A DNA stretch of 64,000 nt from Polychytrium aggregatum (Eukaryota > Chytridiomycota > Chytridiomycetes > Polychytriales), in contig NW_026516255.1 in assembly GCF_025602895.1 (NCBI RefSeq), positions 124,001 through 188,000 of the forward strand. Direction: 5' to 3'. Shown in pieces: positions 8,347-49,979 of this stretch (the first letter of the stretch is position 1; each line of letters begins with the position of its first letter). Below the pieces are notes generated by a model, which did no database searches, was not told the DNA's origin, and worked only from the letters and a program-made list of their open reading frames with translations. The translations under genes were made by a program, and so were the position numbers.

Positions 8347-9582
8347 TCATAGAGCAGGTTGAGTGGACGGCGTATTCGCGGGGATGACCGTGGCATCGGC
8401 AGCAAAGCAATCCGAGTCAAAAAAAAAAAAGAATAAAAATGGACAGAACAACGGTCCAATTAGCTGACTTTGGGTTGGTGTGCGGTGAGCAGATCGCCAA
8501 CGGACACATGGGTTATTCGGGAGATAGAGGCGGTCGGGGGTGGGACCGTACTTGATTGCTGTCGACCGACCACCGAGAAGCAGGAGAATCCTGTCAGACT
8601 GAGCCCGATTTTCTTCAGCAATGGCGGACACACCATCTCCGAGTCTACAAGGTAGGAGGGGGGGGTTCAGCGAAACGGCGAGGCGTTCTGTCAGAGCTGG
8701 GCCTTGCGAATCCGGACCCTTGCATCCAGATCGCCGGTGCCAAAGTGGCAGAGTGCGAGATGATACGGGAGACCACGCAGGGTCGCTCCTCCATGGTCAT
8801 GGAATCTCGGGCATATGCATCGCTTGGAGCCATCTGCGAGCCGCTGACCGCGGGGAAGCGAGCGCCGCAGTCCGAGACGTACTTTGGACATATCCGTAGG
8901 TTGCGTTCGTACTCATTTTATGCAGAACTGACACGGCGATGGCGGCTAGATCAGTGGGTTCGACTGGACAGTCCTGGACGGGAGGGGGATGAGGACGCTC
9001 GCCGATGTGTCGCCTGGCCGCAGCAGGATGCAGATGGAATCGAAGCAAAAGGTTGCGATGCGAACACAGCAGCGAGTCCGGTCCTTCGGAAATCGCAGCT
9101 TTTTGTTGGAGCCGAGCATCGAGTGGCTCTGTGGGACGGCCAGTTCCTGTGCAGCCACCCCTCTTGTACTACGGTAATCAAACTCGCCCGAGCCTGAGCC
9201 CAAGCCTCGCGGTGGCTCGACATCAACAACCGCCGGGCTGGGATGGAAGGGCAGGTGTGCAGGCGGCTCTGGGTTTGGAGGCAGTCCAGGAACGGCAGCG
9301 CCGGCTGCGACGACAACACACCCGACAGGCCCCCCAATCGGCCGAAGCTCTGTCGTCACCCTGGCGAGCACGCGGCAGCATCTGGTGGCTCGTTGGGACA
9401 ACAACAGCACCAGCCCCAGCATGCTCGTCCATGGGGCTGGCGACAACAGTGCCAGCGGCATCCATGGAATGCCCTGGATGATGTCGTCTTGACGCTGTGT
9501 ACGCCAACAGGCCCGAGTCCAGCAGAATCCGTCGATCCACTGCTAATTTCGCCACCGAAAATCATCTTACAGCGTTTCCAAT
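8347..9582. other. mostly unassigned; possible minus-strand exon(s)
   Basis: Contains a 12-A run at about 8420-8431 and the candidate minus-strand exon at 8650-8552 (see the hypothetical protein at 7861). Open frames on both strands between 8690 and 9550 show no recognisable family and overlap each other. Confidence 0.35.
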
Positions 9583-10170
9583 ATGAAATGGGACACCCCT
9601 GTTTTGTGCATGGCTGTGCTTTTTCTGGAACCTGAATACACCCACCACTCATTGCATTCATGGCCAAGCAAGTATGTCCAAGGAGACCGAAGTGGTGATT
9701 GCCTTTGGGAATGCATCCTGGAAACAGGGGAGGGATATGCTTCCAGTCCCAGGAGACTCAAGTTCGCCAAGTATTTTGAGCAGTTCCACCACCACCAGAG
9801 ACGACCACCAGACCGATCCGTCTCCAAGATCCATGTGTGCTCGGTGAACGAGTCCAACACATCCCAGGTGTGCTCACATTGTCGGGAAGCCAAGCGACTC
9901 GAGAAGGTCGAGCATCTTGATATCGAGAAACCATGGAACTGTCCAGAGAGTCGAGTGAATGCACCACACTCACACATCGAGACATCAATGCAGCCAGGAA
10001 CATGATCTCGGTATGCCAGTCGATCATCGCCACAGGAGATCGACCAAGTGTATTCAAGACTGTGCTCCCGAAACCAACGAAAACAAAGAGTTTGCCAACC
10101 AGGATGGGAAACAATCTCACGGCTTGCCCACTGGGCCTACAAGTCAGTCAGCGGGTTTCAGATATCTGAA
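9583..10170 (+). mobile_element. decayed TnpB/Fanzor-like transposase, C-terminal part
   Basis: Remnant of an OrfB/TnpB-family RNA-guided nuclease of the eukaryotic Fanzor type (inferred from motifs). One frame (9583-10005) carries YASSPRRLKFAKYFEQF, then VNESNTSQVCSHC, where the Glu and the first CxxC match the RuvC-II and zinc-ribbon region, then NCPES. A second frame (9933-10169) continues with ECTTLTHRDINAARNM, the HRDxNAARN signature of RuvC-III with its catalytic Asp. A third frame near 9690 reads VIAFGNASW, the usual block before the conserved Arg-rich helix. At least two frameshifts therefore separate conserved blocks. RuvC-I and the N-terminal domain were not found upstream. No terminal repeats, target duplication or guide-RNA end could be defined. 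The copy is probably inactive. Related fragments lie at 31875 and 41038. Confidence 0.75.
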
Positions 10171-11048
10171 GCCAGGAAGTGACTGTTCCGTTTCTTTCTG
10201 GATAGACTGTACAGCATTCGCAACGGAGCCACTCTGTTATTGTCGCCAATTGTGCGCTCTTCATTGATGAACACTGCCGACTGGGTCGCCGCATTCATTC
10301 AATAACTCCCATCAACATGGCCGAAACAAAAGGAAACAAAAGGAAGCAATAGAAAAATCCGAACCAAACAAAATCAAATCAAGCGCACGAGTGCCCTCGG
10401 ACTCATCGCCACTGCAACCGGGCTGCAAACTGTGACTGGGTTACAGAGGGAGGAACGGTGCTGGGCAAGGACCGTTGGCCGTGCAAGCGCATGCGAAAAT
10501 CTCGAGAGCGGGCAAGACCACAATGTGCCCAGATCTCGACAACGACCGAATCAATAGAGTACCAGTGTGGTTGTGGTTGTTGTTGTCGTCGTCGCTGCTC
10601 CTGCTGCTGCGGTATCGCGACAAGTGGAAGCAAGACGACGAAAGGAGGTGATGACAGTAGAGATACAAGAGTGAGGCGAAGCAAAGACAGGGCAAGGAGC
10701 GGCCAGAAAGCCAGATTCCCGACAGAGAGTGGTGCTGCCGACGGGGCAGCGTCGTCGTCGATGAGGCAGAGCGGCCGGCACAGAGAGTAGAAAATAGACA
10801 GCCGTAAGGTGGGAGAAGGAACAGACCCGCCGTCGGGAGAATCGGACTGCTGACGCGGAGAAGCTGGGTGGTGATAGTGATAGTGGTAGTGAGGGTGGAT
10901 TGGATTTGGAGATCGGCTGAGGTTGGGTTGGCGAGCCGAAAACTCGGCAGGGAGTGGACCAGAGTGAAAGACGGCGGGCTTCGGCCTCAGGACAAGCGAG
11001 GTATATGCCCGGCGGCCGATAGATCGCTTAGGTGGCCACGGCGAGTGT
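10171..11048. other. intergenic, low complexity
   Basis: Downstream of the PP2C gene. A-rich near 10320-10380, with GTT/GTC/CTG triplet-rich sequence at 10560-10615 and a GTGATAGTGATAGTGGTAGTG stretch at 10867-10890. No gene is supported. Confidence 0.5.
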
Positions 11049-13461
11049 CTAGGGTTTCAGTTTGACGAGGATGACGCTGACGTTGTCGGTAGACCCGATA
11101 TCCAGGGCCTTCTGTGCCAGAACCTCGGCTACGCCCGTGGTGAGGATATCCACCGTGACGGCGTTGCTTCCCGCAGAGATCTCCGACTCGGCGTTATCCA
11201 GGCTCTGGGTGGGCTCGGCGAGGCTGGAGGTTCGACGGCCCCAGCCATTGTTGTCGTCCTGTACATTCTCTTCGAAATAGCCGTGCTCGCGCTTTCGGAG
11301 CCACTCGTGGATGTCCTTGTTGCTCATGACATCCGTCAGGCCGTCCGACGCCAGCAGCAGATATTTCTCCTTGCCCGTGAGGGTGATGCTCCGGGTCTGG
11401 GGAGTAGCGGTGACCTGAGGGATGTGGTAGTCGCCAAAGGACCTAGTGACGCTCAAGAGCCCGTTGAGCCGGATCGACCTGCCGTCCCGGAGAAACTCGC
11501 CACCTTCAGCCACACAGCGCTGCTTCTCATCCTCGTTGTGGCCTGTGTGCTCGACGATCAGCTTTTCGGATGTGCCGTCCTCGTTGAACAGAATGGCGAC
11601 CGAATCGCCGACCCAGGCAACATGCAGCTGGTTGTCTGCCAATGCGGCAACGACAGCTGTCGAGCCACTCTTCACGCGGCAGTCACCGGCCTCCATGGCG
11701 GCTTTGAGCTTGGAGTTGACCGTCCCAAACGCCTCCTTGAAGGCGTTTTCGGCATTGCTGGGAAATCCCGGCTGCTGGGCCACGACCCAGTGCAGGTGCG
11801 TGGCTACGTACTCAGATGTGACTTCCCCGGCATGGCCATCGTATACGGCATAGAACGACAGCGGCCGGTGCTCGGGACCCTGACGCGCATCATGAACCGG
11901 AGCCAAGATGTGAGTCAGCATGACGTGGCCTTGTCCGAGCGAGCCCGTATGCACCAGCATGGAGTATGGCGGGATGGCTGCGTTGCTCCACATCACAATG
12001 CACAGCAGGGCGGAAAGGGAGTGCGCTCGACAATGCGCACGAGGCTGTATCGTCCAAAAACAAAGCCGATTGCATCTGCCAAAGCCCTGTCGCCCGACTG
12101 GCGCCAGGTGCATGAATAACGACTTCGTACCAGGAGTTCGTTGAGATACGTTCGGACAACGATGCGATCCTCGTTTTTGCTCTTCCATCCCTTGAGTGAA
12201 GCGCCATCGGCAGCATATCGACGCTTGTCCACAGGCGCCGCCATGGCCTCACTGCGACAAGGAGAGACAGATCCGAAAGCCGTTCAGGGCATGAACCCCA
12301 TGTTCAAAAGAGATACACACCCTATGCACTCAATGAGCGCCGAGAGCAGGCCAGGAGAGGGAAGGACATACCGGACGACCTTGTCCAGCTGGGTTTCCAG
12401 CAGCGTCTGAAGGGCAGGTTGAACCCTGTCGATGACGTCCTGGCGCTTGTACACCTTGGGCGAGGGAGTCGCCACCCGCTGCAGCGTCTCGGTCGGATTG
12501 GACGGGAGGGTCGAAGATCGCGGGCGAGACAGCGTGAAGCTTGTGACGGCCGATCGCAGCAAGGAAATCGGATCGGCCCGTTTGGCGGTATTGTTGCGGC
12601 TCAAGGAAAAATAGGTCTTCCAGGGACTCGGGGGCCCGCCCTCATCGCTCGGCTCGCTCGAGATCTTGGGTACGGTCGTGTCCAGGAGGAGGGCATCGAC
12701 TTGCGGGCTGGGATGCACCTTGGTGGTTGTGGTGGTGGTGGTGTCTGTGCGGCGACGGATGTGGGGCGACAGATGTGCTCATGAGTTGTCTCTGGCCACG
12801 AATCCTCCAGATACCAGTGTCGAGTTGGGGAAGCAGCGACCAGCCACCGACATCATTCAGCGATGATGCGAATAATAAAGGCGCGTAGCAGTGGATACGT
12901 ACTCGAGAGAGCTCCTGACGCCTGCAGCTCCTCGACGACCTGCAGACACACGAGCCGGGCAATCTTTGTGGCGATAAGCTCGAGGACGGTAAGGGGAATC
13001 GGCACCCGCTGCGGGTCGTCGCCGAGCAAGGCGCCCTCGGTGGCCAGAGCAGAATATTCAGAGCTGCATGCGGATATCACAGCAGAAGCGACAGGTGGGT
13101 CCACCCCGAGAGCAAGACGGAGCGGTTAGAACAGCCAGGCAATGCGGGGTCCGACAGAGGAGGGGGGAGCCGGCCGATCCTGGCCGGGTCCACCTCCAAG
13201 GTCGCAATAGCAGCGGGGCGGCTTGATGCTTGGCAGTAGACACAAGCAAGTCGCATGGACTGAATGTGCTGACGACGGCGACTTGGACAAGAGTGCCTCC
13301 TGCGTGCTGCCGACTGCCAAGCGAAGGAGGAAGAGAAGAGCCAATCGCCGCACAAAGACACACCTGCAATAGACGCAAAGCATGGCCTCGCGGGCAATGA
13401 CGGGCAGGAGCTGCGAGGGCTCCACGTCGGCCGGGACCCATCGTCCGGCTCTGGGGGGCAT
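11049..13461 (-). CDS. PP2C-family Ser/Thr phosphatase with N-terminal extension
   Basis: Metal-dependent protein phosphatase (PPM/PP2C) that dephosphorylates Ser/Thr residues. Proposed exons: 13461-13364, 13063-12903, about 12744-12372, 12251-12131, 11879-11049; 1584 nt, 527 aa. The PP2C core occupies about residues 255-527: GWKSKNEDR (metal Asp), SFYAVYDGHAGE (DGH metal site), KSGSTAVVAAL, HVAWVGDSVAIL, SVTRSFGDYH, LLLASDGLTDVMS and GSTDNVSVILVKL (last metal Asp). The N-terminal 250 residues include a predicted-helical segment (LLPVIAREAMLCVYC, LTVLELIATKIARLVCLQVVEEL) and a Thr/Ser/Pro-rich linker, and were not recognised. The join of exons 3-4 (gtatgt donor, ttgtcgcag acceptor) places the ATG at 12244 inside the protein. 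A shorter transcript starting there would encode the catalytic domain alone. The exon 3 acceptor is the weakest call. Confidence 0.82.
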
Positions 13462-31874: not shown

Positions 31875-31930
31875 CCTACGCAGACCCAGGCTCGCCAAGT
31901 ATCTTGAGCAGTTCCGCCATCACCAGAGGC
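31875..31930 (+). mobile_element. short TnpB/Fanzor-like fragment
   Basis: One frame reads LRRPRLAKYLEQFRHHQR, matching RRLKFAKYFEQFHHHQRR of the element at 9741-9800, with nucleotide identity across CGCCAAGTAT, TTGAGCAGTTCC and CACCAGAG. No other block of the transposase is recognisable nearby, so this is a small relic. Confidence 0.65.
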
Positions 31931-32174
31931 ACCCAAGTGTCCAGAGCACACGGCCGTTGGCCGACAGAACAAGCAGGCTCCTGGCTACAGAACCTGCATA
32001 TCCCAAATCATGGCGGAAACATGGTAGCATCAGTTTCACGGCCCATGTGCGATCGCAGTCGGTGGGAGCGACGGGGAGAATGACGGGGGAGTGGTAGTCG
32101 GTTCAGATATTGAGCGTCACGAAAACGAGACAGAGCAGCGCCAAGACCAGGCAACGAACAAGATGTGATGCCTC

Positions 32175-37254: not shown

Positions 37255-38337
37255 GATGTGGTCTCAGGCAGGCGATGCTTTCTTCGTCCTGTTTGTTGTG
37301 CTGAAGCCGGACTGTCTTGCCGGAACGAGCTCTCCGCCAGTTGCTGCTCGAATATCGGGACCCTGGGTGGATCGCGAGGGCAGGGTTGTTGCAGTTAAGG
37401 TGGACCATCTAGAGGCTCAGAGGCGACGGGATAGCCAGGGCGTGGGATGCCGATATTCTGCAGCCCACTCTCAGGCAGCTTCCGGGCCGAGAGTGCGCTC
37501 CACTCAACTCACCTCGTCGCTGAGCACAGACCCAAGTCGAATGAACGAAGACGCACTTGGTCCGTGCGATAGGGAACAAATGGCCGCCGTGAGCCGAACA
37601 GGTTATCGTTCGATTGCATTCGCCGGCAGCCGCAGCGTGATGATTCAATCGCCTGGCAGCAGCGCACATATCTCCAGATGCTGTCGGAGCGGCTCTGGTG
37701 CTTTGGTCATCCGAAGCTCCTCGCCTGTCGAATCAAGCCGCGGGCACTCACCCTACACTACAACGGCCCGAGCACCGGCCAGTGATGACCATATCTGACC
37801 AACAAGAATCAGCCAAGACCAGCATGCAAAACATGCCCAAAATGGGTTGAAATGGAACTGGTCCTCCATATCGACAAGCGTCTGTCCATTGATCCCCCGA
37901 TCTCTGCGTTGTTGCAAAGCATTTTGTGCATTGCTGTGAAAGATACTCTGTTTCAGTGCACCATTCGCAGACTTTCCGTATGTGTGCGGACTCCTTGGTG
38001 CAATCGGGGTGTCGATCTACACTGTACACACAACCCATTTGTCGGCGTAGTATGTGATGGCTTGCGTCAAGCGGAGCCATAAGAAATAGAACAGATCACT
38101 CTGGCAGCCTCCGAGTGAAGACCGCCGGTTGATCGAAAAACTGGGCGCCCCCTTCTTTATTGCTTTGACTGCAATCCGCAACTTGGTCGCGGTGTGTCCG
38201 CCAAGCAAAGCAGCCCAGGCAGGAAAGAGGCGAGCAGATGAGCCAGAAGGAGGAGTGGTCATGGCTGGTTTGCGACGATTGCATAGATGCCTCTGCCCGA
38301 TTGTTCCCGACTACACTGGTACTGCACGATTTCTGAA
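37255..38337. other. intergenic between G-alpha B and C
   Basis: No gene is supported. Holds one copy of an 85-bp dispersed repeat at 38041-38126. Confidence 0.55.
38041..38126. repeat. dispersed 85-bp repeat, copy 1
   Basis: From GGCGTAGTATGTGATG through AGTGAAGACC, nearly identical to 49247-49326, about 11 kb away. It differs at a few bases plus a one-base indel in the GATG(A)GCTTGCG part. Confidence 0.9.
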
Positions 38338-40429: not shown

Positions 40430-41386
40430 CGTGAAGACAAGGGGTATCGCTGCTCGAAGGAGGGTTTAAGGAGTCGATTGATGCTCTCAGAGGTGATGGA
40501 CGACTGTGGGAACTGCGGCACAATTCAGATGGCTGCCCGACGGTGCCGAGTGACGATGTGGTTGGTTATTTGACCGGAACGATGCCGTCCAAGAGTGCAG
40601 GCAGACGACGCAAACAGCCAAGGGCGTCCCAAGCAGCAGCCGCCTTCCCAGCGGTTCTCGTGGATGATGTCCACTTTTCAGCGACGCACTGGCCTGACAA
40701 TCTTGCCGGCTTTGCTCGAAACGACTCCAACAAAGCGTACACAAGAGAATGTTCCCACGAGCACCTGATTGGCCGGTTGAATGTTTGTTGCCGCCGATCA
40801 GCACTGTGCTACTGCCCCGCAAGTACAGTCTGTGGACAAGAGCGGGGTGGCTGTGATTTCAAGTTGCGCAGGACGACAACAGCCGCCCCAGCTGTTGTCA
40901 GTCGGTGGCTTGTTTGTCTGTTGAGCGGGCACGTACATGCGCATCAACAGCCCACTCGTTCCCGAATCGCAGATCAGGATGTTGTGGCTGAAGCTGCCTG
41001 TGGCAATCGCTCAAGAGTATACAGCGTACCCAAAGCGAAACGGGACACCCTCTTCGAATCAGGGCTGTCGCTTCCAGAGTCGCGAATACACATCTATCCC
41101 ATCATGGCCCAACGGTGTCTCCACTGAGATTGGCATTGTGATTTGCCTCTGGGAATGTGTCCTGGAAGCAAGGGAAGGGATACGCATCGAGCCCACCGAG
41201 ACAGGCTCGCCCGGTACTCGGAGCAGCCCCATCATTGCCTCAGGACATCGGCCGGGTGTATTCAAAGCCGTGCCCCTGCAACCACCAACTGAGACCAGAT
41301 ACAGTCGCATGGCCGCAGTGGTGCTGCGGGCAGCAGATCGTTGTGCTGAAGGCCGCGGTTGATGCAAAGGACTGAGGGACACTGCC
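40430..41386. other. intergenic between G-alpha C and GNL1
   Basis: Contains the deleted transposase copy at 41038-41290. The remainder (40430-41037) has no recognisable gene. Confidence 0.5.
41038..41290 (+). mobile_element. TnpB/Fanzor-like element, internal deletion derivative
   Basis: Collinear with the element at 9583. A GGGACACCC block is followed by ATTTGCCTCTGGGAATGTGT (compare ATTGCCTTTGGGAATGCAT at 9698-9716), then GGGATACGCATC and AGGCTCGCCCGGTACTCGGA (RLARYSEQ, matching RLAKYLEQ). Then comes a direct jump to ATCATTGCCTCAGGACATCG (IIASGHRPGVFKAV, matching IIATGDRPSVFKTV at 10021-10060). The segment encoding the RuvC-II Glu, zinc ribbon and RuvC-III Asp, about 230 bp in the 9.6-kb copy, is missing. 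Confidence 0.7.
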
Positions 41387-49180: not shown

Positions 49181-49979
49181 GCATATCACGACGACACGTA
49201 CACTTCACACATGAGCAAACGGGACACCCTCACGATCCCATATGCCAGCGTAGTATGTGATGAGCTTGCGTCAAGCGGAGCCATAAGAAATAGAACAGAT
49301 CACTTTGGCAGCTTCTGAGTGAAGACACCGGTCGTTCTCCGGTCTCCACAATCGACCTGCACACTGGTCTCGGAGTGCCAGCGGTGAATGGTGCTCTTGG
49401 CGCACTGGCGAATGGTCATGGCCAGCGCGCGGTGGTACTGGATAACAAAACATTTGATCAATGATCAAAATCGAGGGTATCCTGTTTCTTTCTGGAACGT
49501 ACGAAACATGCACGGACAGTCGAGACAGCACCCGGTCGGATATGGGATGCCTCTCGGCTCTCGAATGTCAACACAAGATCAGGGCCGGGAGACGATCTTC
49601 AGCGGGCTTCATCGATTCAAACTTGCATGAAATACAGCATTCGCATCATTAACGAGACACTTCCCAACCAGCCCAACAGTGATGATGATGATGAATATAA
49701 ATAGCGAGGCAGGATTTGGAGCCGTGGCCAGCAGCTGCGACGGATACAAGCAAGTCGAGCGAGGGATCAGAGGGATCAGAGGGATGTCGCAACCACACCC
49801 AAAAAGAGAAACAAAGGAAATGAAGGAGAACCAGCGCATACAATGTTGTGGTATCGACAGCAACGGTGGTGGATATGCCTCTTGGAAAAGTACTGCGACA
49901 GAGAGCGAGCAGGCTGGCCACGCTTGGCTGGGAACATTCGATTCACTTGGTTTCTGTGCAAAGACTTGCTTGGCCGAGC
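49181..49979. other. intergenic with transposase-related repeat
   Basis: GGGACACCC at 49220 resembles the start of the transposase blocks at 9588 and 41049. It is followed by the 85-bp repeat. On the minus strand the sequence 49400-49350 reads TIRQCAKSTIHRWHSE, suggestive of a helix-turn-helix, but frameshifts surround it. A GATCAGAGG triple repeat lies at about 49766-49788. No intact gene is supported. Confidence 0.5.
49247..49326. repeat. dispersed 85-bp repeat, copy 2
   Basis: Near-identical to 38041-38126, including an unbroken stretch from CTTGCGTCAAGCGGAGCC through AATAGAACAGATCACT. Confidence 0.9.

Follow-up and report, generated by a model that had tools for sequence, protein, structure and literature searches.

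A decayed Tc1/mariner copy with a Fanzor1 remnant in Polychytrium aggregatum, and its relatives that code for transposase and Fanzor1

Positions 9583..10170 of the window, the whole 64,000-nucleotide stretch of Polychytrium aggregatum DNA analysed here, were taken in a preliminary description for the decayed remains of a TnpB/Fanzor-type RNA-guided nuclease. Such a relic raises the questions of which element it came from, whether intact relatives persist in the same genome, and what a Fanzor does for the transposon that carries it.

All three peptides on which that description relied are present on the plus strand, each in a frame of its own: VIAFGNASW, the RuvC-II strand, in frame 2 (9695..9721), VNESNTSQVCSHC in frame 1 (9844..9882), and THRDINAARNM in frame 3 (9972..10004). 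The frame-1 peptide contains the first CxxC, and its E aligns with the repositioned glutamate E541 of SpuFz1; the RD of the frame-3 peptide aligns with SpuFz1 D606. Together they mark a Fanzor1 C-terminal part of about 160 codons, the last fifth of the gene (9678..10169, plus strand), in which VIAFGNASW, the first CxxC and the RD are retained, and Fanzor homology runs from about 9678 to near 10217. The zinc-ribbon spacing reported earlier holds in part, as the first CxxC (CSHC) is preserved and the stretch expected to hold the second is scrambled. The RuvC-I region is deleted, and the relic, with its coding spread over three frames, has neither an open frame nor a complete D-E-D triad. The assignment to TnpB/Fanzor-type nucleases stands and can be narrowed to Fanzor1; the word transposase, which was also applied, does not fit, since a Fanzor is a nuclease, and in the parent element the DDE transposase has a gene of its own.

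The limits given before fell in the right region, with the ends lying slightly outside them. An inverted-repeat scan, with coordinates rechecked, revealed a 644-bp non-autonomous element with Tc1/mariner ends at 9568..10211 (plus strand), with TA at both outer ends. Its left terminal inverted repeat, TACAGCGTTTCCAATATGAAATGGGACA, occupies 9568..9595 (plus strand; five mismatches to the pattern), and its right one occupies 10184..10211 (minus strand; two mismatches), ending in ...GACTGTA and reading TACAGTCTATCCAGAAAGAAACGGAACA on the reverse strand from 10211. The left end is 77% identical over 44 bp to that of element B, one of the relatives described below, and the DNA of the Fanzor part is 86–87% identical to elements A and B. 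The relic contains no transposase and is assigned to Tc1/mariner by its ends. Elements of similar build, about 620–641 bp long, were found by the same scan at three other loci (L002, L007 and L008). Judged by its repeats and by the TA at 9568 and 10211, the feature is a dead, internally deleted Tc1/mariner copy, derived from a parent element that carried Fanzor1.

Proteins of 20 long-frame loci from the same genome matched the window stretch in tblastn (best E-value, 1e-67), and the DNA of the stretch is 85–90% identical to these loci, over 534–551 bp in 19 of the 20 and over 391 bp in L024. On these alignments, the three-frame peptide match is far above chance. The frame-1 piece alone matched the Pfam family PF07282 (Cas12f1-like TNB) with an E-value of 9.2e-5 and 23 bits (curated cut-off, 26.3), and all nine protein matches found for the frame-1 reading came from P. 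aggregatum. An Rfam scan of the window gave no hit at gathering score.

Elsewhere in the window, a second relic of this kind, in a more advanced state of decay, lies at 41020..41288 (plus strand), with a left repeat and two short Fanzor C-terminal pieces; the inverted-repeat scan recognised no right repeat for it. A short Fanzor C-terminal fragment at 31882..31935 (plus strand) is 81% identical to elements A and B. The relic at 9568..10211 is adjoined by an open frame on the minus strand (11049..12248), the translation of which resembles a PP2C-type phosphatase.

The search for relatives covered 64.7 Mb in 418 contigs. With the window core as query, 150 matches were scored out of 1,512 first-look candidates, a lower bound, and 28 of the 150 lie in stop-free frames of 768–1011 aa, some of them on apparent duplicate contigs. 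Full-length copies, as had been anticipated, therefore exist elsewhere in the genome. Twenty of the 28 were read, and comprise 14 elements of type A, five of type B (L012 without its left part, L024 without its right end), and L015, with the later part only. The ends of these elements are far more numerous: the genome holds 420 mariner left ends, 524 right mariner repeats of the B/A type (including those inside type A), 261 type C right ends and 135 type A left ends, all with no match to the reversed control patterns, and 133 type A right ends, with one control match. A further left-repeat variant, TACAGTCAATCC..., occurs in at least six places among the matches listed (genome G000, C24:143389, C35:73065, C46:760085, C57:92371, C72:76328 and C157:101303). 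Long open frames beside the elements at L012, L021 and L024 read in translation as LTR-retrotransposon pol/gag-like. Three predicted host proteins of P. aggregatum (P0010, P0011 and P0014) match the Fanzor C-terminal part and have F-box, male-sterility/AMP-binding and kinase domains among them; in the sequences of P0010 and P0011 the Fanzor pieces are visibly joined to the host domains, and such fusions may be either gene-model artefacts or exon capture. In the viral contigs covered (one scan of eight), 39 pattern matches were obtained and no relative was confirmed.

The sequences of the intact relatives identify them as Fanzor1. A DPG motif is a Fanzor hallmark according to the excerpts of PMC10711439, and the RuvC-I motif WIGIDPGVGS has its D592 invariant in 12 of 12 aligned A and B copies, and is the same in the type C Fanzor (FzC). 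The glutamate of VNEFNTSQVC, also invariant in the relatives, aligns with SpuFz1 E541 just before the zinc finger, and is followed by a C4 zinc ribbon and the RD (CSHC...CASC...WDRD). Counted along the alignment, the SpuFz1 residues D383, E541 and D606, which are named in the retrieved portions of PMC10432273, align with the aspartate in IGIDPG, the glutamate in VNEFNTS and the D of WDRD, so that the triad D592/E787/D830 of L020, invariant in the 12 aligned copies, supplies the DED triad that an intact homologue had been expected to keep. PF07282 scored above its cut-off in all three full-length proteins scanned. A profile of 12 relatives matched SpuFz1 at 3.7e-30, GtFz1 at 8.7e-18 and the TnpB-like L79 at 2.3e-9; comparison of a single sequence with solved structures gave a best E-value of 0.018 (Cas12m) and did not reach SpuFz1 or GtFz1.

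Complete elements of types B and C are about 3.75 kb long and code on one strand for a DD34E transposase and a Fanzor1 of about 790–900 aa; inverted repeats and a TA target duplication, the Tc1/mariner criterion, are present in both types. The complete type B element L025 (about 3.79 kb) consists of a left repeat (TACAGCCAATCCAATAAAAAACGGGACA), a 310-aa transposase, a Fanzor on the same strand, and a right repeat. The type B transposase matches Pfam DDE_3 at 6.4e-24, with D145, D221 and a spacing of 34 to the E; at least 128 copies of it were scored among 538 candidates. Its frame is open in L016, L024 and L025 and broken in L010. In type B, the Fanzor frame of L010 and L016 runs up to the right repeat, and that of L012 and L025 stops about 116 bp short of the right end. 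Type C elements have the ends TACAGGCAATCCAATAAAAAACGGGACA... and ...TTGTCCCGTTTTTTTCTGAATAAAGTGTA (with the left-end variant TACGGGCG in L060 and L062), are about 3.74 kb long, and share 95–98% identity with one another. In six of them, picked by their transposase and not by their Fanzor, the transposase frame is open in five and the Fanzor frame in three. On chosen contigs, 61 left ends were examined for a partner (at least two are of another left-repeat variant), and for 50 of them a type C right end was found: 42 of the resulting elements measure 3.2–3.8 kb, and eight are short, namely five of 283–385 bp, with no room for either gene, and three of 1,114 bp.

Over the 1,019 aligned bases between the left end and the stop codon of the transposase, the DNA of types B and C is 96.6% identical, whereas their Fanzors agree in only 41% of residues. 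In the Fanzor tree, five of the ten inner branches of which are well supported, FzC adjoins FzA and FzB (100/100) and then the search-database protein P0013 (98/98). Thus, nearly one transposase precedes two well separated Fanzor1 lineages.

Type A holds a B-like Fanzor between CACTA-like ends, with target duplications of 3 bp. CACTA (EnSpm/CMC) transposons have CACTA termini and a 3-bp target duplication; type A likewise starts with CACTA, its ends being CACTATCAATTTTTTCC... and ...AATTTTTTCATAGTG (in short, CACTATCAA...ATAGTG), and differs in having no transposase gene inside, as none was seen on reading the element sequence. Read by eye, perfect 3-bp direct repeats flank 13 of 22 distinct insertions and are absent in nine, against about 0.3 with such repeats by chance. 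These 22 are the insertions with both ends read, after the duplicates L028, L032, L047/48 and L049/50 were set aside and L014, L017 and L022, without a full left end, were excluded. Inside type A, the right mariner repeat is preserved, as are the final codons of the transposase gene (these were read in L020), and from these remnants it follows that the type A carrier acquired its Fanzor from a mariner. As candidate sources of the enzyme moving type A, loci matching Transposase_21 (PF02992) may be named, with 29 matches in the genome, many of them identical short frames. The eight 1.57-kb type A copies that were read, as well as L005 and L006, have internal deletions that match to within a few bases, which identifies them all as one amplified derivative. 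The very short type A copies L031 and L032 (295 and 278 bp), together with L029, were considered as empty precursors and set aside, since they look like deletion derivatives. A single exact gapped pattern for an empty type A site had no match in the genome. At two places (G000, C51:45753-46824 and C142:26633-27914), type A left ends stand in opposed pairs about 1.1–1.3 kb apart, which resembles the layout of a symmetrical or fold-back element.

The intact Fanzors are under purifying selection, also in the transposase-free type A. Mean pairwise dN/dS over 19 full-length A and B genes was 0.31, for copies that were picked for long open frames and are to that extent biased toward intact genes. 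Changes private to one copy within the sample numbered, as N:S, 125:89 in FzA (n = 12, p 4e-6), 120:89 in FzB (n = 8, p 2e-6) and 65:85 in FzC (n = 6, p 6e-14), against a neutral expectation of 72–73% N; the corresponding figures for the transposase were 16:23 in B and 13:20 in C. In the shared C-terminal codons, 16 full-length copies had 16N:18S and 14 short copies 47N:18S (Fisher p 0.016), the short ones being ten of type A (26N:9S) and four mariner copies, that of the window included (21N:9S). The window copy is therefore neutral debris, an ordinary relic. A protein-level function of the short copies, considered in view of their pairwise pN/pS of 0.22–0.33, was rejected: their private changes are neutral, and the pairwise values are low because the variation is shared.

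Silent divergence between A and B amounts to 0.27–0.58 in windows before codon ~465 and to 0.06–0.17 beyond codon ~566, and past codon ~560 it is at about the level within A. This fall points to an exchange of the C-terminal Fanzor part between types A and B. It was not accepted as proof of an overlapping RNA, since the divergence comes down to about the within-A level, which fits such an exchange.

DD34E family transposases excise at inverted repeats and insert into TA. In the reading that we prefer, and regard as probable, the relic descends from a parent mariner with both transposase and Fanzor1, in which the Fanzor copied the element back by RNA-guided cutting. The transposase would excise the element at its inverted repeats and insert it at a TA site, and Fanzor1 would bind an RNA from the right end of the element, the 3' tail of which would be neighbouring host DNA. 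The nuclease would then cut the matching, still-empty site beside a short adjacent motif (TAM), and repair from the filled copy would write the element back into the cut site. In such a scheme, for which we infer the cleavage, the guide RNA and the TAM from sequence, the transposase would move the element and the Fanzor would raise its copy number. Fanzor genes would also be exchanged between carriers, two of them now standing behind a near-identical transposase and one in a CACTA-like element.

A conserved guide-RNA end, proposed in the preliminary description, was not demonstrated: right-end RNA folding gave no significant fold, with z from -1.08 to +0.30 against shuffles. As the type B Fanzor frame ends at or near the right end, a type B guide RNA would overlap the gene or be very short. 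Type C has left two ghosts in the window, both on the minus strand. The longer, at 49199..49501, comprises a decayed left end and transposase start, the last Fanzor codons, a 3' non-coding block and the right end, and the shorter, at 38018..38173, shares the 3' non-coding block. The left end and the block that follows the Fanzor stop are retained in both ghosts, which probably derive from one ghost lineage, because they share derived differences. In the 52-column block that begins at the type C Fanzor stop, the full element and the ghosts are identical at 46/52 and 46/51 columns, and in the columns that follow at 29/51 in one ghost; this conservation is at most suggestive of a guide RNA.

The window copy and its short relatives might, like the ghosts of Spizellomyces, carry guide RNAs that serve the intact Fanzors in trans. 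We hold this to be unlikely, though it deserves some weight, for the short elements retain the right end, the post-stop block in the window ghosts is better conserved than the columns behind it, and ghost RNAs functioned with SpuFz1 in human cells, as reported in the excerpts of PMC10432273. Ends persist, however, in the deletion derivatives of any transposon, the short copies tested show no protein-level constraint, and no significant fold was obtained; moreover, the relic at 9568..10211 belongs with type B, in which a non-coding block of this sort is lacking.

The base in front of the left end bears on what the Fanzor does. Genome-wide, T precedes the TA (giving TTA) at 169 of the 175 left ends that match type C exactly, and it does so in six of six type C elements read. 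In exact type B left ends, the base at this place is T in five cases, C in two, G in one and A in at least three (one of them in L024), so that T accounts for five of at least eleven; in this small sample of eleven ends, the share of T would fall with further A-preceded ends, and one T case (C326) may duplicate contig C63. The two types differ at Fisher p 7e-6. At the right end of type C, the TA is followed by A in one copy of six. Because the bias is one-sided and shifts with the Fanzor while the transposase is nearly constant, it seems to be the Fanzor, and not the transposase, with which the flank base varies, as expected of a TAM. The excerpts of PMC10432273 provide a precedent, as the conserved CA before the left repeat in S. 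punctatus agrees with the measured TAM, CATA, and those of PMC11423790 place the TAM-reading residues in the REC and WED parts. A broader proposal, which we put forward tentatively and at slightly less than an even chance, is that the Fanzor decides which insertions multiply. Left flanks would then record the TAM of each Fanzor (TTA in type C), and a swap of Fanzors, including that into the CACTA-like carrier, would be a way to change the TAM.

The T bias may instead belong to the transposase or to the left repeat, since B and C differ there by 3.4% and their repeats differ. Carried further, this leads to the Fanzor as a passenger, with the mariner transposase doing everything and the T of type C being a preference of the transposase or the left repeat. 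In type C the transposase is indeed intact more often than the Fanzor (five against three of six), and T also precedes eight of eight paired short type C-ended elements (five of 283–385 bp and three of 1,114 bp). The Fanzor genes are nonetheless constrained, even in type A, where no transposase accompanies them; type B shows no T bias, although its DNA over the transposase is 96.6% identical to that of type C; and a symmetrical transposase complex predicts a bias on both sides or in either orientation, not a one-sided one. We therefore rate a passenger Fanzor as rather improbable, a shade below guide RNAs acting in trans. That the window piece is a fragment of an unrelated zinc-ribbon gene can practically be dismissed: taken alone it stays below the PF07282 cut-off, but its DNA is 85–90% identical to that of full-length copies with a profile match to SpuFz1 and a preserved D-E-D, and the best matches were not to a zinc-ribbon protein devoid of RuvC similarity.

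This genome is a good place to examine what Fanzors do for transposons. It offers complete elements with transposase and Fanzor, hundreds of ends, and transposase-free carriers with a constrained Fanzor. The natural pair of nearly one transposase with two Fanzors permits a direct test of the effect of the nuclease on spread, and there are intact Fanzor1 proteins to assay, with TTA as the predicted TAM. Were the flank reading true, the left-end flanks would be a TAM record written by the genome, and swaps of Fanzors would change the motif.

The system as a whole is of a known kind, Fanzor1 on DNA transposons. In searches that left most subscription papers outside, no paper was found on Fanzor together with Polychytrium or with CACTA, none on the transposable elements of P. 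aggregatum, and no passage in the text portions retrieved that connects Fanzor with EnSpm. Three features of the system had no counterpart in the portions of the PMC literature compared, namely the pairing of almost the same transposase with two Fanzors, the transfer of a Fanzor to a CACTA-like carrier that can still be traced in the DNA, and a flanking base that seems to vary with the Fanzor. According to the excerpts of PMC10711439, Fanzors reach up to hundreds of copies. The closest likeness is to Spu-1/SpuFz1 of Spizellomyces punctatus, likewise a chytrid Fanzor1 with inverted repeats, (putative) TA duplications and many copies, and also with short ghosts, one or more conserved bases in front of the left end and a repositioned glutamate (excerpts of PMC10432273 and PMC3627910). 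According to the excerpts of PMC10432273, no transposase was found within the ends of Spu-1, whereas the parent elements here code for one, and the flank on the left is CA in Spu-1 and T in type C. The Spu ORF has 633 aa, while the Fanzors here have about 790–900 aa and an N-terminal CxxC...H...C motif. The mariners PGv-1 and PUl-1 (Bao and Jurka 2013, PMC3627910, in excerpts) likewise combine a transposase and Fanzor1 with TA duplications, and their relatives also share transposase ends and differ in their 3' cargo. Those are four related single-copy elements with swapped cargo that includes other enzymes; here, in contrast, two Fanzor1 lineages stand behind near-identical transposase DNA, with hundreds of ends in the genome. 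The same excerpts place Fanzor transposons in the Helitron, Mariner, IS4-like, Sola and MuDr superfamilies, which represents the same capture by different carriers; in P. aggregatum, the capture is readable in the DNA, in the right mariner repeat and last transposase codons of type A.
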